This document shows positions 24,078 to 33,245 of a stretch of DNA of 64,000 nt, piece by piece. This stretch comes from Polynucleobacter sp. MWH-Loch1C5 (GTDB taxonomy: Bacteria; Pseudomonadota; Gammaproteobacteria; Burkholderiales; Burkholderiaceae). Numbering within the stretch: the first letter of the stretch is position 1; each line of letters begins with the position of its first letter. The notes beneath the pieces are model-generated. The model saw only the letters and a program-made list of their open reading frames with translations, had not been told where the DNA came from and searched no databases. Made by a program: the position numbers and the translations under genes. The stretch lies in contig NZ_JACVPR010000001.1 in NCBI RefSeq assembly GCF_018881775.1, positions 186,001-250,000 on the forward strand, given 5' to 3'.

Positions 24078-26810
24078 TTATAAAGTTCTTGCTACTTCAG
24101 TGACTTCATAAATCTCAAGCTGGTCACCGACTTCAATATCGTTATAACCGCGCAATGAAAGGCCACACTCAAAACCGCCCTTCACCTCTTTAACGTCATC
24201 TTTGAAACGCTTCAATGAATCGAGCTCACCACTCCAAATAACTACGTTATTACGTAATAAACGAGCTCTTGATGAACGTTTGACGAGACCCTCTAAGACC
24301 ATACAACCGGCGATAGAACCGACCTTAGAAACGTGGAATACCTGACGAATCTCAACGAGGCCCGTGACTTCTTCTTTCTTCTCAGGTGCCAACATACCAC
24401 CCATAGCAGCCTTCACCTCATCCACCGCATCATAGATGATGTTGTAGTAACGAATATCCACGCCATTGGCTTCTGCCAGCTTTCTGGCCGTTGCGTCAGC
24501 TCGTGAATTAAAGCCGATCACGACTGCCTTAGAAGCCACCGCCAAGTTAATGTCGGTTTCAGTAATGCCACCAACAGCCGCATGAATAATCTGTACACGT
24601 ACTTCCGGAGTAGAGAGCTTCATCAAAGATTGAGAAAGTGCTTCTTGAGAACCTTGTACATCGGCCTTGATGATGATCGGCAAAGTCTTTGCCTCAACAC
24701 TACCCTCACCCATGTTCTCAAACATGCTTTCTAATTTGACGGCCTGCTGTTTAGCTAACTTCACATCACGGAACTTACCCTGACGGAACAAAGCAATTTC
24801 ACGAGCCTTACGCTCATCTGCAACCACAATAACTTCTTCACCAGCTGCCGGCACTTCTGATAAACCTTGAATCTCTACTGGAATAGAGGGTCCAGCTTCC
24901 TGACATGGCTTACCGTTTTCGTCCAACATGGCACGCACGCGACCAAATGATTGGCCAGCCAAAAGCATGTCACCACGCTTTAAGGTACCCGATTGAACCA
25001 AAATGGTCGCTACCGGGCCTTTACCTTTATCTAACTTGGCTTCAATCACTAAGCCTTTTGCTGCCGCATCACGTGGCGCAGTTAACTCTAAAACTTCAGC
25101 TTGTAACAAAACGTTTTCGAGTAACTCATCAATACCTGCACCGGTCTTAGCAGATACAGGAATAAATGGCGAGTCACCACCGTATTCTTCTGGAACCACT
25201 TCCTCAGCGACCAACTCTTGCTTGACACGCTCAGGATTAGCTTCTGGTTTATCAATTTTGTTGACTGCCACGACTAAAGGCACACCCGCTGCTTTAGCAT
25301 GGGCAATCGCCTCCTTAGTTTGCGGCATCACACCATCATCTGCTGCCACAACCAAAATAACAATATCAGTCGCTTGTGCACCGCGAGCACGCATGGCCGT
25401 AAAGGCCTCGTGACCTGGCGTATCCAAGAAAGTAATCATGCCGCGTTGTGTCTCAACGTGATAAGCACCGATGTGCTGCGTAATACCACCGGCTTCGCCA
25501 GAGGCTACTTTGGTTGCACGAATCTTATCTAGCAAAGAAGTCTTACCGTGATCCACGTGACCCATCACAGTAACGACTGGAGGTCTTGGAAATAGCTCAG
25601 ACTCATGCGCTTCAGTGTTGAGATCAGACTCAGGATCGTCTAATTTCGCTGCAAAAGCACGATGACCCATTTCTTCAACGATGATCATGGCCGTGTCTTG
25701 ATCCAAGACTTGGTTGATTGTCACCATTTGCCCCATGCCCATGAGCAACTTAATGACCTCAGCGCCTTTAACAGACATCTTATGCGCTAACTCAGAGACA
25801 GTAATCGTTTCTGGAATATGAACATCACGCACCACAGGCTCAGTAGGTGCGACAAAATTAGTCGCTTGTTCGGCTTGATGGGATTTCTTCTTACCACCCC
25901 CTGTGCGCCAACCACCGCCTGTACCACCTGTAGCATCACCACGAACTTTCAAGCCACCCGGACGCTTTTTAGCACCCTCTTCTTGCCAAGTCGATGAGGA
26001 CTCAGAAGACTTGATGGTCTTACCTGGCTTAGCTTTATCTTTTTTCTTATCTGCATCGGCACCTTCTGCCTTCACTGGCTTGTGTAATGTGCCTTTTTTC
26101 TCTTCCTCAGGTGGCTTAGGTGCTTTGAGAACGCGCGCTGGCGCATTCATCATTTCTCGAATCGCTAATGCTTCAGCCTCAGCTTTCGCACGACGCACAC
26201 GTAACTGCTCTAACTCTTCATCCTTGGCTTGTGCACTCGCTTTAGCCTTCGCTGTTTCTTGTGCTTCTTCTTGCACATCTGCAGCGCTCGGCTCAATCGC
26301 TTGCTCGGCAGCTTTCTGAGCTTTAGCAGCTTGGCGCTCAGCCTCTTCTTTGGCTTTGCGCTCTAACTCAGCCTTCATATCTGCTTCTTGACGGGCCAAC
26401 AACTCAGCTTGACGCTTGGCTTCAGCCTCACGCTTCGCTAATTCAGCATCATCGAGCACATGCTGCACAGGAGCTGCAACACTCTCAGGCTCAGCACTCG
26501 CGGCTTCATCACGCTTCACGAGTACGCGTTTTTTACGAACCTCTACCTGAACAGTCCGTGTGCGACCTGCAGAATCCGCTTGACGAATTTCTGTAGTTTC
26601 ACGCTTCGTTAAGGTAATTTTCTTACGCGCTGTTGGTTCAGCTGAACCATGAGCAGTACGCAGATAATCCAAAAGTTTGGTTTTATCTTTTTCTGTTAAT
26701 TTATCTTCCACAGATGTCTTACTAATACCTGCGGCCTGAAGCTGCTCCAATAATGCCTCTGGAGTGCGCTTCAGTTCTTTTGCCAAATCTTGTACGGTCG
26801 TGGTCGCCAT
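24078..26810 (-). CDS. infB: Translation initiation factor IF-2
   Basis: IF-2 is the GTPase that places fMet-tRNA on the 30S subunit. The 910-residue protein is of the long form. It has an IF2_N module ([21 protein letters not shown]) and a highly charged Ala/Glu/Lys linker to about residue 310. A second N module follows ([21 protein letters not shown]), then the G domain with [31 protein letters not shown] and [10 protein letters not shown], and finally the C-terminal tRNA-binding domains. It is 16 bases after nusA. Confidence 0.98.
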
Positions 26811-26826
26811 GCGAACCCCTTATGAA

Positions 26827-28302
26827 TCAGTTAAACCAGTGCTCACGCGCTTTCATGATCATGCCCTTAGCAGACTCCTCGTTGATACCAGTCATTTCTA
26901 CCAACTCATCAACTGCTAACTCAGCCAAATCATCACGGGTATGCACTTGGTTATCCGCTAATTTAGCGATTAAAGAAGTAGTCATACCATCCAAAGAACG
27001 TAAGTCTTGAGATACCTCTTCAACACGCTCTTCTTTGGCTAATTCCATGGTGAGTAATGAATCACGCGCACGATTACGTAATTCATTGACTGTATCTTCA
27101 TCAAAGGCTTCAATCTGTAACATCTCAGAAAGCGGCACATAAGCAACTTCCTCAAGACTATTAAAGCCCTCTTCAATCAAAATATCAGCCACCTCTTGAT
27201 CAACATCGAGCTTATCCATGAATAGTGCACGCACCTTACCAGCCTCTTCCTCAGTCTTCTGTGCAGATTCTTCTGGTGTCATGATGTTGATATGCCAGTC
27301 AGTCAACTCACTCGCTAAACGAACGTTTTGACCACTGCGACCGATCGCAATCGCTAAATTCTCCTCATCGACCACCACATCCATGGCATGCTTTTCTTCA
27401 TCGACCACGATGGATTGCACTTGCGCTGGCGCTAGAGCACCAATCACAAACTGTGCTGGATCTTCAGACCACAAAACAATGTCCACCGCCTCACCCGCGA
27501 CTTCATTACGTACCGCAGTCACTCGTGTGCCACGCACACCTACACATGTACCGATAGGATCAATGCGCTTATCGTGGGCTACCACCGCAATCTTGGCGCG
27601 AATACCAGGGTCGCGCGCAGCACCTTTAATTTCTAATAAACCTTGCTCGATTTCAGGCACTTCGTTTTCAAATAATTTCATCAAGAAATCAGGCGCGGTT
27701 CTTGATAACTCAATCTGAGGGCCGCGTGCTTCACGGTCTACCTTGACAATAAAACCGCGGACACGATCGCCACTACGCAAATTCTCCTTAGGAATCATTT
27801 GGTCACGACGCAATAAAGCTTCAACACGACCTGATTCAATAATGAGACCATTTTTGTCAGCACGTTTGACAGTGCCTGTCATGATTTTTTCGCCACGCTC
27901 CAAATAATCATTCAAGATCTGTTCACGCTCAGCGTCGCGAATCTTTTGCAAAATCACTTGCTTAGCTGTTTGAGCGCCAATACGGCCAAACGCGACAGAC
28001 TCCACCTGCTCTTCAATGTAGTCGCCAATCTCAATATCTTCAATCTGTTCTTTGGCTTCGAAATGCAGAATCTCTTTGTCTGGCTCTTGCAAACCCGCCT
28101 CATCCGGAACGACTAACCAGCGACGGAAAGTCTCGTACTCGCCACTATTGCGATCAATCGCAACGCGAATATCCACATCTTCCTCATAACGCTTTTTGCT
28201 CGCTGAGGCCAAGGCCATCTCGAGGGCCTCAAAGACCACTTCACGTTCCACATTTTTTTCACGCGCCAGTGCATCAACTAGCATGAGAACTTCACGACTC
28301 AT
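26827..28302 (-). CDS. nusA: Transcription termination/antitermination factor NusA
   Basis: The 491-residue protein shows the NTD ([27 protein letters not shown]), S1 domain ([24 protein letters not shown]), and the two KH domains ([34 protein letters not shown]). It ends with two C-terminal acidic repeats. NusA modulates pausing and termination and can autoregulate its operon. It overlaps rimP by 4 bases. The leader of this operon contains a terminator-like hairpin on which NusA could act. Confidence 0.98.
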
Positions 28303-28793
28303 GATTTTCTTCCTTTGAAATCAACGACGGGAACTAGCCTAGTTTTATCAACTTCAGCTAGCGTAAATTCAAGCATGGCTTCTTCACCATTCGCGGCCTC
28401 AAATAAGAGACCTAATTTGGCATCCACCGACTCAGGATCCCCTGAAACCAAACCCTGCAAAATACCTGTGTAATTTTTTCGTCCTGCATGAGCAACACGC
28501 AATTTCACATTCGCTTGAAGACCAGCAAAACGAATGTAATCAGCCACAGTCTTCACAGGACGATCGAGTCCAGGAGATGACACTTCTAAACGTTCGTAAT
28601 TAATGTTTTCAATGGGCAAGCTGTAATTCAAATGACGCGTCACCTTTTCACAATCGGTCAAGGTGATGGGCTGTTCATAATTCGTGTTCTCAATGGTGAC
28701 GCGCAGCAAACCCCGGCCTTCGCGCTCGATATCTACGAGTGCGTAACCCAGAGTTGTCACTGCATCAGCAATAAAAACTTGCTCGTTAGCCAT
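28299..28793 (-). CDS. rimP: Ribosome maturation factor RimP
   Basis: The 164-residue protein of the RimP/YlxS family has [18 protein letters not shown], the [10 protein letters not shown] block and a C-terminal SH3-like region ([23 protein letters not shown]). It helps assemble the 30S subunit. It is the first gene of rimP-nusA-infB-rbfA-truB, preceded by a leader of about 110 bases with a strong sigma-70-like promoter. Confidence 0.97.
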
Positions 28794-28817: not shown

Positions 28818-28842
28818 AAAAAAAAGTGGGCATATAGCCCAC
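28818..28842 (-). terminator. Terminator-like hairpin in the rimP leader
   Basis: On the minus strand GTGGGC TATAT GCCCAC (28842-28826) is a 6-bp GC-rich stem with a 5-base loop, followed at once by eight T (28825-28818). It is 24 bases before the rimP ATG and downstream of the predicted promoter. It is therefore either an attenuator of the rimP operon or a late terminator for rluB. Confidence 0.75.
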
Positions 28843-28868
28843 ATTCTTAACATCACTAGAATATGCCC
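28828..28868 (-). other. Candidate antiterminator pairing in the rimP leader
   Basis: In the leader RNA GGGCAUAU (28868-28861) is perfectly complementary to AUAUGCCC (28835-28828), which includes the 3' arm of the terminator hairpin. Forming this 8-bp helix would prevent the terminator stem. The two structures are mutually exclusive, the usual layout of an attenuator. This is inferred from sequence only. Confidence 0.5.
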
Positions 28869-28912
28869 GACTTACGTTCACCGAACTTTGGCCGGATTTA
28901 CTAAACAATTGA

Positions 28913-28940
28913 ATTATATAGGAACTTTGCCTTTCTGCAA
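28913..28940 (-). promoter_or_regulatory. Sigma-70-type promoter of the rimP-nusA-infB operon
   Basis: On the minus strand TTGCAG (28940-28935), a 16-base spacer and a perfect TATAAT (28918-28913) are present between rluB and rimP. Transcription would begin near 28906, giving a leader of about 113 bases that includes the terminator-like hairpin. It is the best -10 match I noticed in the window. Confidence 0.7.
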
Positions 28941-32168: not shown

Positions 32169-32915
32169 ATGAACCACATACCCGTCAGCGCCTCACCTAA
32201 CAAATGCTCAACCTGCGTGCTAGGACAATTCTGTTTGCCGGTAGGCTTGTCTTCTGACGATATACAAAAGGTGGATTCTTTAGTCACAGAACGTGTACGT
32301 CTCAAAAAAGGTGAACCCTTGTATCGCCAAGGTGATGCCCTAACAGCCATTTACGGTATTCGTTTTGGCACTCTAAAAACTGAATACGCTTTGCCCGATG
32401 GTCGCGAACAAATTACTGGTTTTCATTTGCCCGGCGAAATGCTCGGTCTCGATGGTATCGGTGAGAACACCTACCAATCAAATGCTATTGCGCTAGAGGA
32501 TAGTGAAGCCTGTGTAGTTCGTTTTAATGATTTTGAACAACTTGCACGCCAACTCCCTTCTTTGCAAAATCAGTTTCATAAAATTCTCAGCCGCGAACTC
32601 ACACAAGATCAAAGACACTTACTGTCTCTTGGCACACTGAGAGCCGAAGAACGTTTAGCGAGTTTCTTACTCAATCTGTCTGATCGTCTATCGGCTCGAG
32701 GTTATTCACCTCATGAATTTCATTTGCGTATGAGTCGTGAAGAAATCGGCTCTTATTTAGGAATTCAACTAGAAACAGTCAGCCGACTCTTCTCACGCTT
32801 TACTGAGTCAGGACTGATACAAATTAAGCAAAGACATATCAAACTTGTCGATACAGATGGCTTATTGGAGCTAGCAGGAAAGTCCCGAGCGATTCACTGT
32901 ACGCACGTGCAATAA
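32169..32915 (+). CDS. fnr: Oxygen-sensing transcription regulator FNR
   Basis: The 248-residue CRP/FNR protein has the [4Fe-4S] ligands Cys13, Cys16, Cys22 (KCSTCVLGQFCLP) and Cys115 (DSEACVVRF). A cyclic-nucleotide-type barrel and dimer helix follow. The helix-turn-helix IGSYLGIQLETVSRLFSRF carries the E..SR residues that read TTGAT half-sites. It should activate microaerobic genes, and a matching site lies before ccoN. It converges with the cco operon end, separated by a bidirectional terminator. Confidence 0.95.
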   Translation: MNHIPVSASPNKCSTCVLGQFCLPVGLSSDDIQKVDSLVTERVRLKKGEPLYRQGDALTAIYGIRFGTLKTEYALPDGREQITGFHLPGEMLGLDGIGENTYQSNAIALEDSEACVVRFNDFEQLARQLPSLQNQFHKILSRELTQDQRHLLSLGTLRAEERLASFLLNLSDRLSARGYSPHEFHLRMSREEIGSYLGIQLETVSRLFSRFTESGLIQIKQRHIKLVDTDGLLELAGKSRAIHCTHVQ

Positions 32916-32954: not shown

Positions 32955-32986
32955 TTAAAAACCGCCCGAAGGCGGTTGTTTGTCTT
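32955..32986. terminator. Bidirectional terminator between fnr and the cco operon
   Basis: AACCGCC (32960-32966) and GGCGGTT (32971-32977) form a 7-bp stem with a CGAA loop (TTCG on the minus strand, an extra-stable tetraloop). The minus strand continues with TTTT (32959-32956 region), and the plus strand with GTTTGTCTT. It serves the convergent fnr and ccoH-orf86 ends. Confidence 0.8.
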
Positions 32987-33245
32987 ATAAGAGACCGCCG
33001 TCGGCACGCTCTTCTAAATCAGATAAGCTGCCCGGCAATATATATATGGTCAAAGCACTCGATAGCGCACACAAGAGCCAAAGAACAAAAAAACCTAAGG
33101 TGTAGACCGCCTCCACTGAGGCTGTTACAGGCTCACCAAAAAAAACGAGGTCTTCAGGATGAACCAGAGTAAATAACAAACCTTCTGCCAAGCCGGCAAT
33201 CATGAAAGAGGGCCACAGAATCCAGATCCAAATTCGGGCTTTCAT
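32985..33245 (-). CDS. Conserved small membrane protein at the end of the cco operon
   Basis: This 86-residue protein has two hydrophobic segments (WIWILWPSFMIAGLAEGLLFTLV and VYTLGFFVLWLLCALSSALTIYIL) joined by an acidic loop (HPEDLVFFGEPV). I do not know a function. Similar short proteins accompany cbb3 oxidase genes in Burkholderiales. Its start overlaps the ccoH stop by 4 bases, so it is translated with ccoH and probably serves oxidase assembly or stability. Confidence 0.75.
   Translation of the reverse strand: MKARIWIWILWPSFMIAGLAEGLLFTLVHPEDLVFFGEPVTASVEAVYTLGFFVLWLLCALSSALTIYILPGSLSDLEERADGGLL

Follow-up and report, generated by a model that had tools for sequence, protein, structure and literature searches.

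The short region between rluB and rimP in Polynucleobacter sp. MWH-Loch1C5 (genome size 1.65 Mb) raises the question of how the operon encoding NusA and IF2 is controlled and whether its leader acts as an RNA switch. In the window, by which we mean the whole stretch of 64,000 nucleotides analyzed, the genes are arranged as rluB-rimP-nusA-infB-rbfA-truB. The operon and its leader lie on the reverse strand, and the leader is thus read from higher to lower coordinates. Its first gene, rimP (28299–28793, ATG at 28793), was assigned from its open reading frame and its relatives, whereas nusA (26827–28302) and infB (24078–26810; IF2) are reading frames identified by sequence and gene order. The initial annotation had described a TATAAT promoter, a hairpin followed by eight U and a segment complementary to that hairpin at eight of eight positions, and all three were found where it had placed them. 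The promoter, on the reverse strand, consists of the −35 box TTTGCA (28941–28936) and the −10 box TATAAT (28918–28913) with a 17-nt spacer, matches the consensus at 10 of 12 positions and is the best among seven promoter-like sites within 12 kb. As a class, such sites are rarer than in shuffled sequences (7 vs. 14.5), and the promoter match alone is therefore little proof; from its position, transcription would start near 28906. Across the genus, 90 of 93 leaders have TATAAT between rluB and the hairpin, 38–143 nt 5′ of the GGGC of the terminator, and the other three have near-matches. The leader of the window folds somewhat better than its shuffles (z −2.2). Main-clade leaders such as L016 and L021 have an additional hairpin directly after the transcription start (ACAGCAG...CTGCTGT), the sequence of which varies among species with the pairing apparently kept.

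The hairpin at 28842–28818 (reverse strand) has the form of an intrinsic terminator, with the arms GUGGGC (28842–28837) and GCCCAC (28831–28826) around the loop UAUAU, and exactly eight U (28825–28818) directly 3′ of the stem, 24 bases before the rimP ATG. Naville and Gautheret described in 2010 a rimP-leader, a terminator whose GGGc...gCCC stem is highly conserved and followed by a U-tract, located 4–130 nt from rimP, that precedes rimP-nusA-infB and is specific to that locus; it usually comes without an antiterminator, and NusA was considered the best candidate regulator (PMC2965389). The hairpin of the window has the same motif, position and operon, its stem, U-tract and 24-nt distance all falling within that description, and it shares the absence of a general antiterminator. 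The motif is also largely confined to the locus, with approximately one copy per genome among 200 genomes of the order. The window differs in having further hairpins, P1/P2 and P3, ahead of the terminator, and these are specific to the genus; the extra upstream structure reported for some Gammaproteobacteria is a second terminator, CCCg..cGGG (PMC2965389). Judged by sequence, the hairpin is thus the known rimP-leader in its Polynucleobacter version, with a genus-specific addition.

The conservation of the terminator is broad. A GGGC...GCCC stem followed by a T-run precedes rimP in 57/57 leaders of a first set, comprising 35 from the genus and 22 from different other Burkholderiales families, and in the final collection the hairpin with its U-tract was present 5′ of rimP in all 93 Polynucleobacter leaders. 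The unit of promoter, leader and terminator that the initial annotation had drawn ahead of rimP-nusA-infB is thus conserved genus-wide. A strict motif, ATGGGC-N3-14-GCCCATTTTTT (ending in GCCCAT6), was found in 129 of 200 order genomes and nearly always as one copy, whereas the reversed pattern, run as a control, matched once across all 200; the window itself falls outside this count as the base of its stem is G–C and not A–U. Where rimP coordinates were known, the motif was at rimP in 14/14 genomes, with one extra copy elsewhere. The stem is invariant and consequently provides no covariation support of its own for the core pairing. The motif searches show a terminator signature that appears conserved across the sampled Burkholderiales families and separable from the lineage-specific upstream domains. 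Elsewhere in the window, a hairpin at 32960–32977 (AACCGCC..GGCGGTT), T-rich on both sides, lies between an fnr/crp-like gene (32169–32915) and an opposing small ORF (32985–33245) and looks like a shared bidirectional terminator.

We compared the locus with the families in Rfam. A search of the window with gathering as well as permissive thresholds returned only two tRNAs. The family RF01770 (rimP), which we take to be the enterobacterial rimP leader and which by its name shares the gene context, has a gathering cut-off of 47 bits; it had no match in the window and none above the cut-off in 21 relatives, and among 14 controls it matched E. coli only. The second candidate, RF02420 (Bp1_162; cut-off 50 bits), reached 24.3 bits on the forward strand of the window and 18.6 bits on the reverse. 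It had strong matches in 18 of 60 genomes of the family and, in all 12 strong loci checked, covered the rluB-rimP spacer including the rimP-leader terminator hairpin, usually together with the −10 box. The model differs from the leader in being on the strand opposite to rimP, as observed in 12/12 rluB-rimP spacers of the Burkholderia group (L153–L164). An Rfam family of predicted Burkholderia "sRNA" thus sits on the rimP leader in the opposite orientation; it may represent an antisense RNA, or else the leader itself assigned to the wrong strand. Leaders of the Burkholderia group (L153–L163) carry a different conserved segment 5′ of the terminator, GTCGCTGGGC...GGTGCGACCACC, that looks capable of forming a hairpin; the distinctness of this segment suggests that each lineage adds a 5′ domain of its own to the common terminator.

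The 5′ domain of Polynucleobacter begins with the hairpin P1/P2 (28896–28866, reverse strand), in which P1 pairs UCCGGC (28896–28891) with GUCGGG (28871–28866) and P2 pairs GUUC (28886–28883) with GAAC (28879–28876). Located between the promoter and the terminator, it is present in 88 of 93 genus leaders with the consensus CCGRCU-GAU-GUUG-NNNN-CAAC-GUA-RGYYGG. Two pairs show changes on both sides (G–C, A–U and G–U), giving covariation in P1, and the pairing is lost when the partners are slid against each other, while the loop-side nucleotides GUUG/CAACGUA are invariant. MAFFT misplaces one gap in the P2 loop of the window, leaving the pair 16–21 gapped for L002. Searched with a covariance model, 108 of 121 genus genomes each gave a single hit, located at rimP wherever coordinates were compared, and genome-wide there were no second copies in the genus that would form a regulon; the copy of the window scored 44.6 bits but was part of the model's training set. 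Among 109 other genomes of the family there was no clear match and one marginal (E 0.0027). The exact degenerate pattern, searched across ~85,000 species, gave 102 stretches that by title belong to Polynucleobacter, to bins of Betaproteobacteria or Burkholderiaceae, and to one bin labeled Chthonomonas, which we take to be mis-binned. Neither P1/P2 nor the small helix P3 was matched to any described family; an RNA survey of 26 genomes included Polynucleobacter, and its supplementary lists may contain the hairpin (PMC8632094). Some members of the genus (L027, L029 and L084, also L035 and L098) lack P1/P2 and keep the terminator, and three of these bear an unrelated AU-rich leader (TTTAGTACTGAAATTTAGTA).

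Downstream of P1/P2 lies P3, in its extended form a pairing of CAUAUUCU (28865–28858) with AGAAUGUG (28847–28840) on the reverse strand that emerges from prefix folding. The core of P3 (UGUUCU/AGRAUA) is standard-paired in 99.5% of the alignment cells and mostly invariant; being conserved mostly in sequence, its pairing is weakly supported. The last three bases of the extended P3, GUG, at the same time begin the terminator stem. In the order given by the energy model, P1/P2 folds before the extended P3 and this before the terminator, with between one and three bases at the foot of the terminator held by the extended P3 until the 3′ arm has been made. In these predictions the extended P3 competes with the terminator less strongly than the antiterminator proposed earlier would, and it is available genus-wide.

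We consider it probable that this locus controls the NusA/IF2 operon by premature termination on a rimP-leader, and NusA feedback appears the most likely form of that control. From the anatomy of the leader, its conservation, the restriction of P1/P2 to the genus and the modeled order of folding, we infer the following scheme. The TATAAT promoter would start a leader of ~90 nt as far as the U-tract, and at the intrinsic terminator, 24 nt 5′ of rimP, a fraction of RNA polymerase would halt, so that the efficiency of termination would set the expression of rimP-nusA-infB-rbfA-truB. The invariant GGGC/GCCC stem indicates that a factor acts in trans; the most likely one is NusA, which by promoting termination at its own leader would exert negative feedback. 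P1/P2 and P3 would fold ahead of the terminator, P3 transiently engaging one to three bases at the foot of its stem, and anything stabilizing P1–P3 would then favor readthrough. The precedent on which the initial annotation relied is established: in Bacillus subtilis, intrinsic termination stimulated by NusA in the leader autoregulates NusA (PMC12288461), and in E. coli a reduced termination function of NusA raises the transcripts of the operon (PMC6511841). The nusA (ylxS) leader of B. subtilis resembles ours in having a terminator before the same operon with NusA encoded downstream (PMC12288461, PMC2965389), but there the dependence on NusA has been demonstrated whereas for Polynucleobacter it is a prediction. 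The E. coli metY-rimP-nusA-infB leader similarly has terminators (t1 and t2) 5′ of rimP, but it includes metY and several promoters, while the window has a single promoter after rluB, with no tRNA in between and none near rimP. A literature search found neither transcript ends nor reporter data nor experiments perturbing NusA for the Polynucleobacter lineage. A constitutive terminator, strong but unregulated, would be expected to have the same appearance in sequence.

P1/P2 may serve as a binding site, as a timing element or to protect the 5′ end. The first of these leads to an alternative that we regard as unlikely though worth weighing, in which a protein or ligand on P1/P2, acting with P3, is the main control and shifts the balance between P3 and the terminator, the latter being the output only; RimP, a ribosomal protein or the KH domains of NusA could, for instance, be the binder. 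The single-copy, genus-wide occurrence of P1/P2 only at rimP, the invariance of its loop-side nucleotides and the early folding of P3 across the terminator base are all consistent with such a role. However, five leaders of the genus and all other families keep the terminator without P1/P2, and just two pairs covary.

The initial annotation favored a different mechanism, a switch in which the segment GGGCAUAU (28868–28861, reverse strand) pairs with AUAUGCCC (28835–28828) on the 3′ side of the hairpin, so that terminator and antiterminator exclude each other. The two segments are fully Watson–Crick complementary, AUAUGCCC consisting of four bases of the 3′ arm and four of the loop, and when the leader is shuffled by dinucleotides, an 8-base match to the 3′ arm arises in 0.12% of cases, or 2.4% with G–U pairs allowed; given the many features that a reader scans, such a match is uncommon, not extraordinary. 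A helix of seven to eight pairs, some of them G–U, is possible in 14/14 leaders of the window's subclade, although only that of the window is fully Watson–Crick, and the parallel use of the same bases by P1 (GUCGGG) and P3 (CAUAUUCU) explains this local conservation. Among 34 distinct leader types (alignment A2), the third pair of the helix is broken in 27 and a partner base is missing in 27, and no pair shows changes on both sides. Thus, while the terminator of the proposed switch is conserved, the antiterminator, whose lack of conservation in close relatives would by the standard of the initial annotation refute the switch, is absent outside the nearest subclade of 14 genomes and without covariation. 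It is also energetically weak: the forced antiterminator has −18.0 kcal/mol against −23.9 kcal/mol for the terminator fold, a cost of 5.9, its equilibrium pair probability is 0.0002, and its formation must break P1 in addition to the terminator. In several other families, just 12–36 nt separate the −10 box from the hairpin, a distance that can scarcely, if at all, accommodate such a switch and that favors a protein acting on the hairpin. We therefore reject the antiterminator as a conserved element and hold the switch to be improbable.

A more speculative proposal, and one to which we give little credence, sees in the P1/P2–P3 domain of Polynucleobacter a new sensor, particular to the lineage, that was added to the ancient terminator of the rimP-leader. 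In one version this sensor would work through translation: in 74 of 93 leaders (e.g., L009 2014–2093, reverse strand), P2 contains an in-frame mini-ORF of five codons, AUG-UUG-NNN-NCA-ACG-UAR, mostly encoding MLRST. By eye, the mini-ORF has no evident Shine–Dalgarno sequence. In the subclade of the window AAG replaces the AUG, and the loop of the window is out of frame, which disfavors this reading there. If true, initiation at the mini-ORF could report 30S/IF2 capacity to the operon that encodes RimP, IF2 and RbfA.

Alternatively, the hairpin could simply terminate transcription of scpB-rluB, the preceding operon, and follow the rimP promoter by chance, as rluB is located upstream and co-directional both in this genome and in 10 of the 20 loci compared at order level. 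This is decidedly improbable, as the −10 box is 5′ of the hairpin genus-wide and the hairpin is retained next to upstream genes that are unrelated or divergent. The divergent neighbors encode AMP-binding enzymes in G057 and G040 and CreA in G051, where the hairpin cannot serve the preceding gene; termination of an upstream gene as the sole function is thereby contradicted. That the leader is chiefly a stable small RNA with incidental attenuation, as the recovery of the Salmonella rimP leader as a ProQ-bound sRNA might suggest (PMC5391140), is hardly credible for a leader in which conservation is concentrated on the terminator and its place before rimP, and no evidence for it was found in the Polynucleobacter lineage.

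Premature termination at the invariant hairpin, probably under NusA feedback, remains our preferred reading. The rimP-leader has been described as the most ubiquitous of transcription attenuators, and its effector has been settled in few models only. Separating the terminator from the domains added to it would permit a clean test of how the invariant hairpin responds to NusA and of what the additions contribute.
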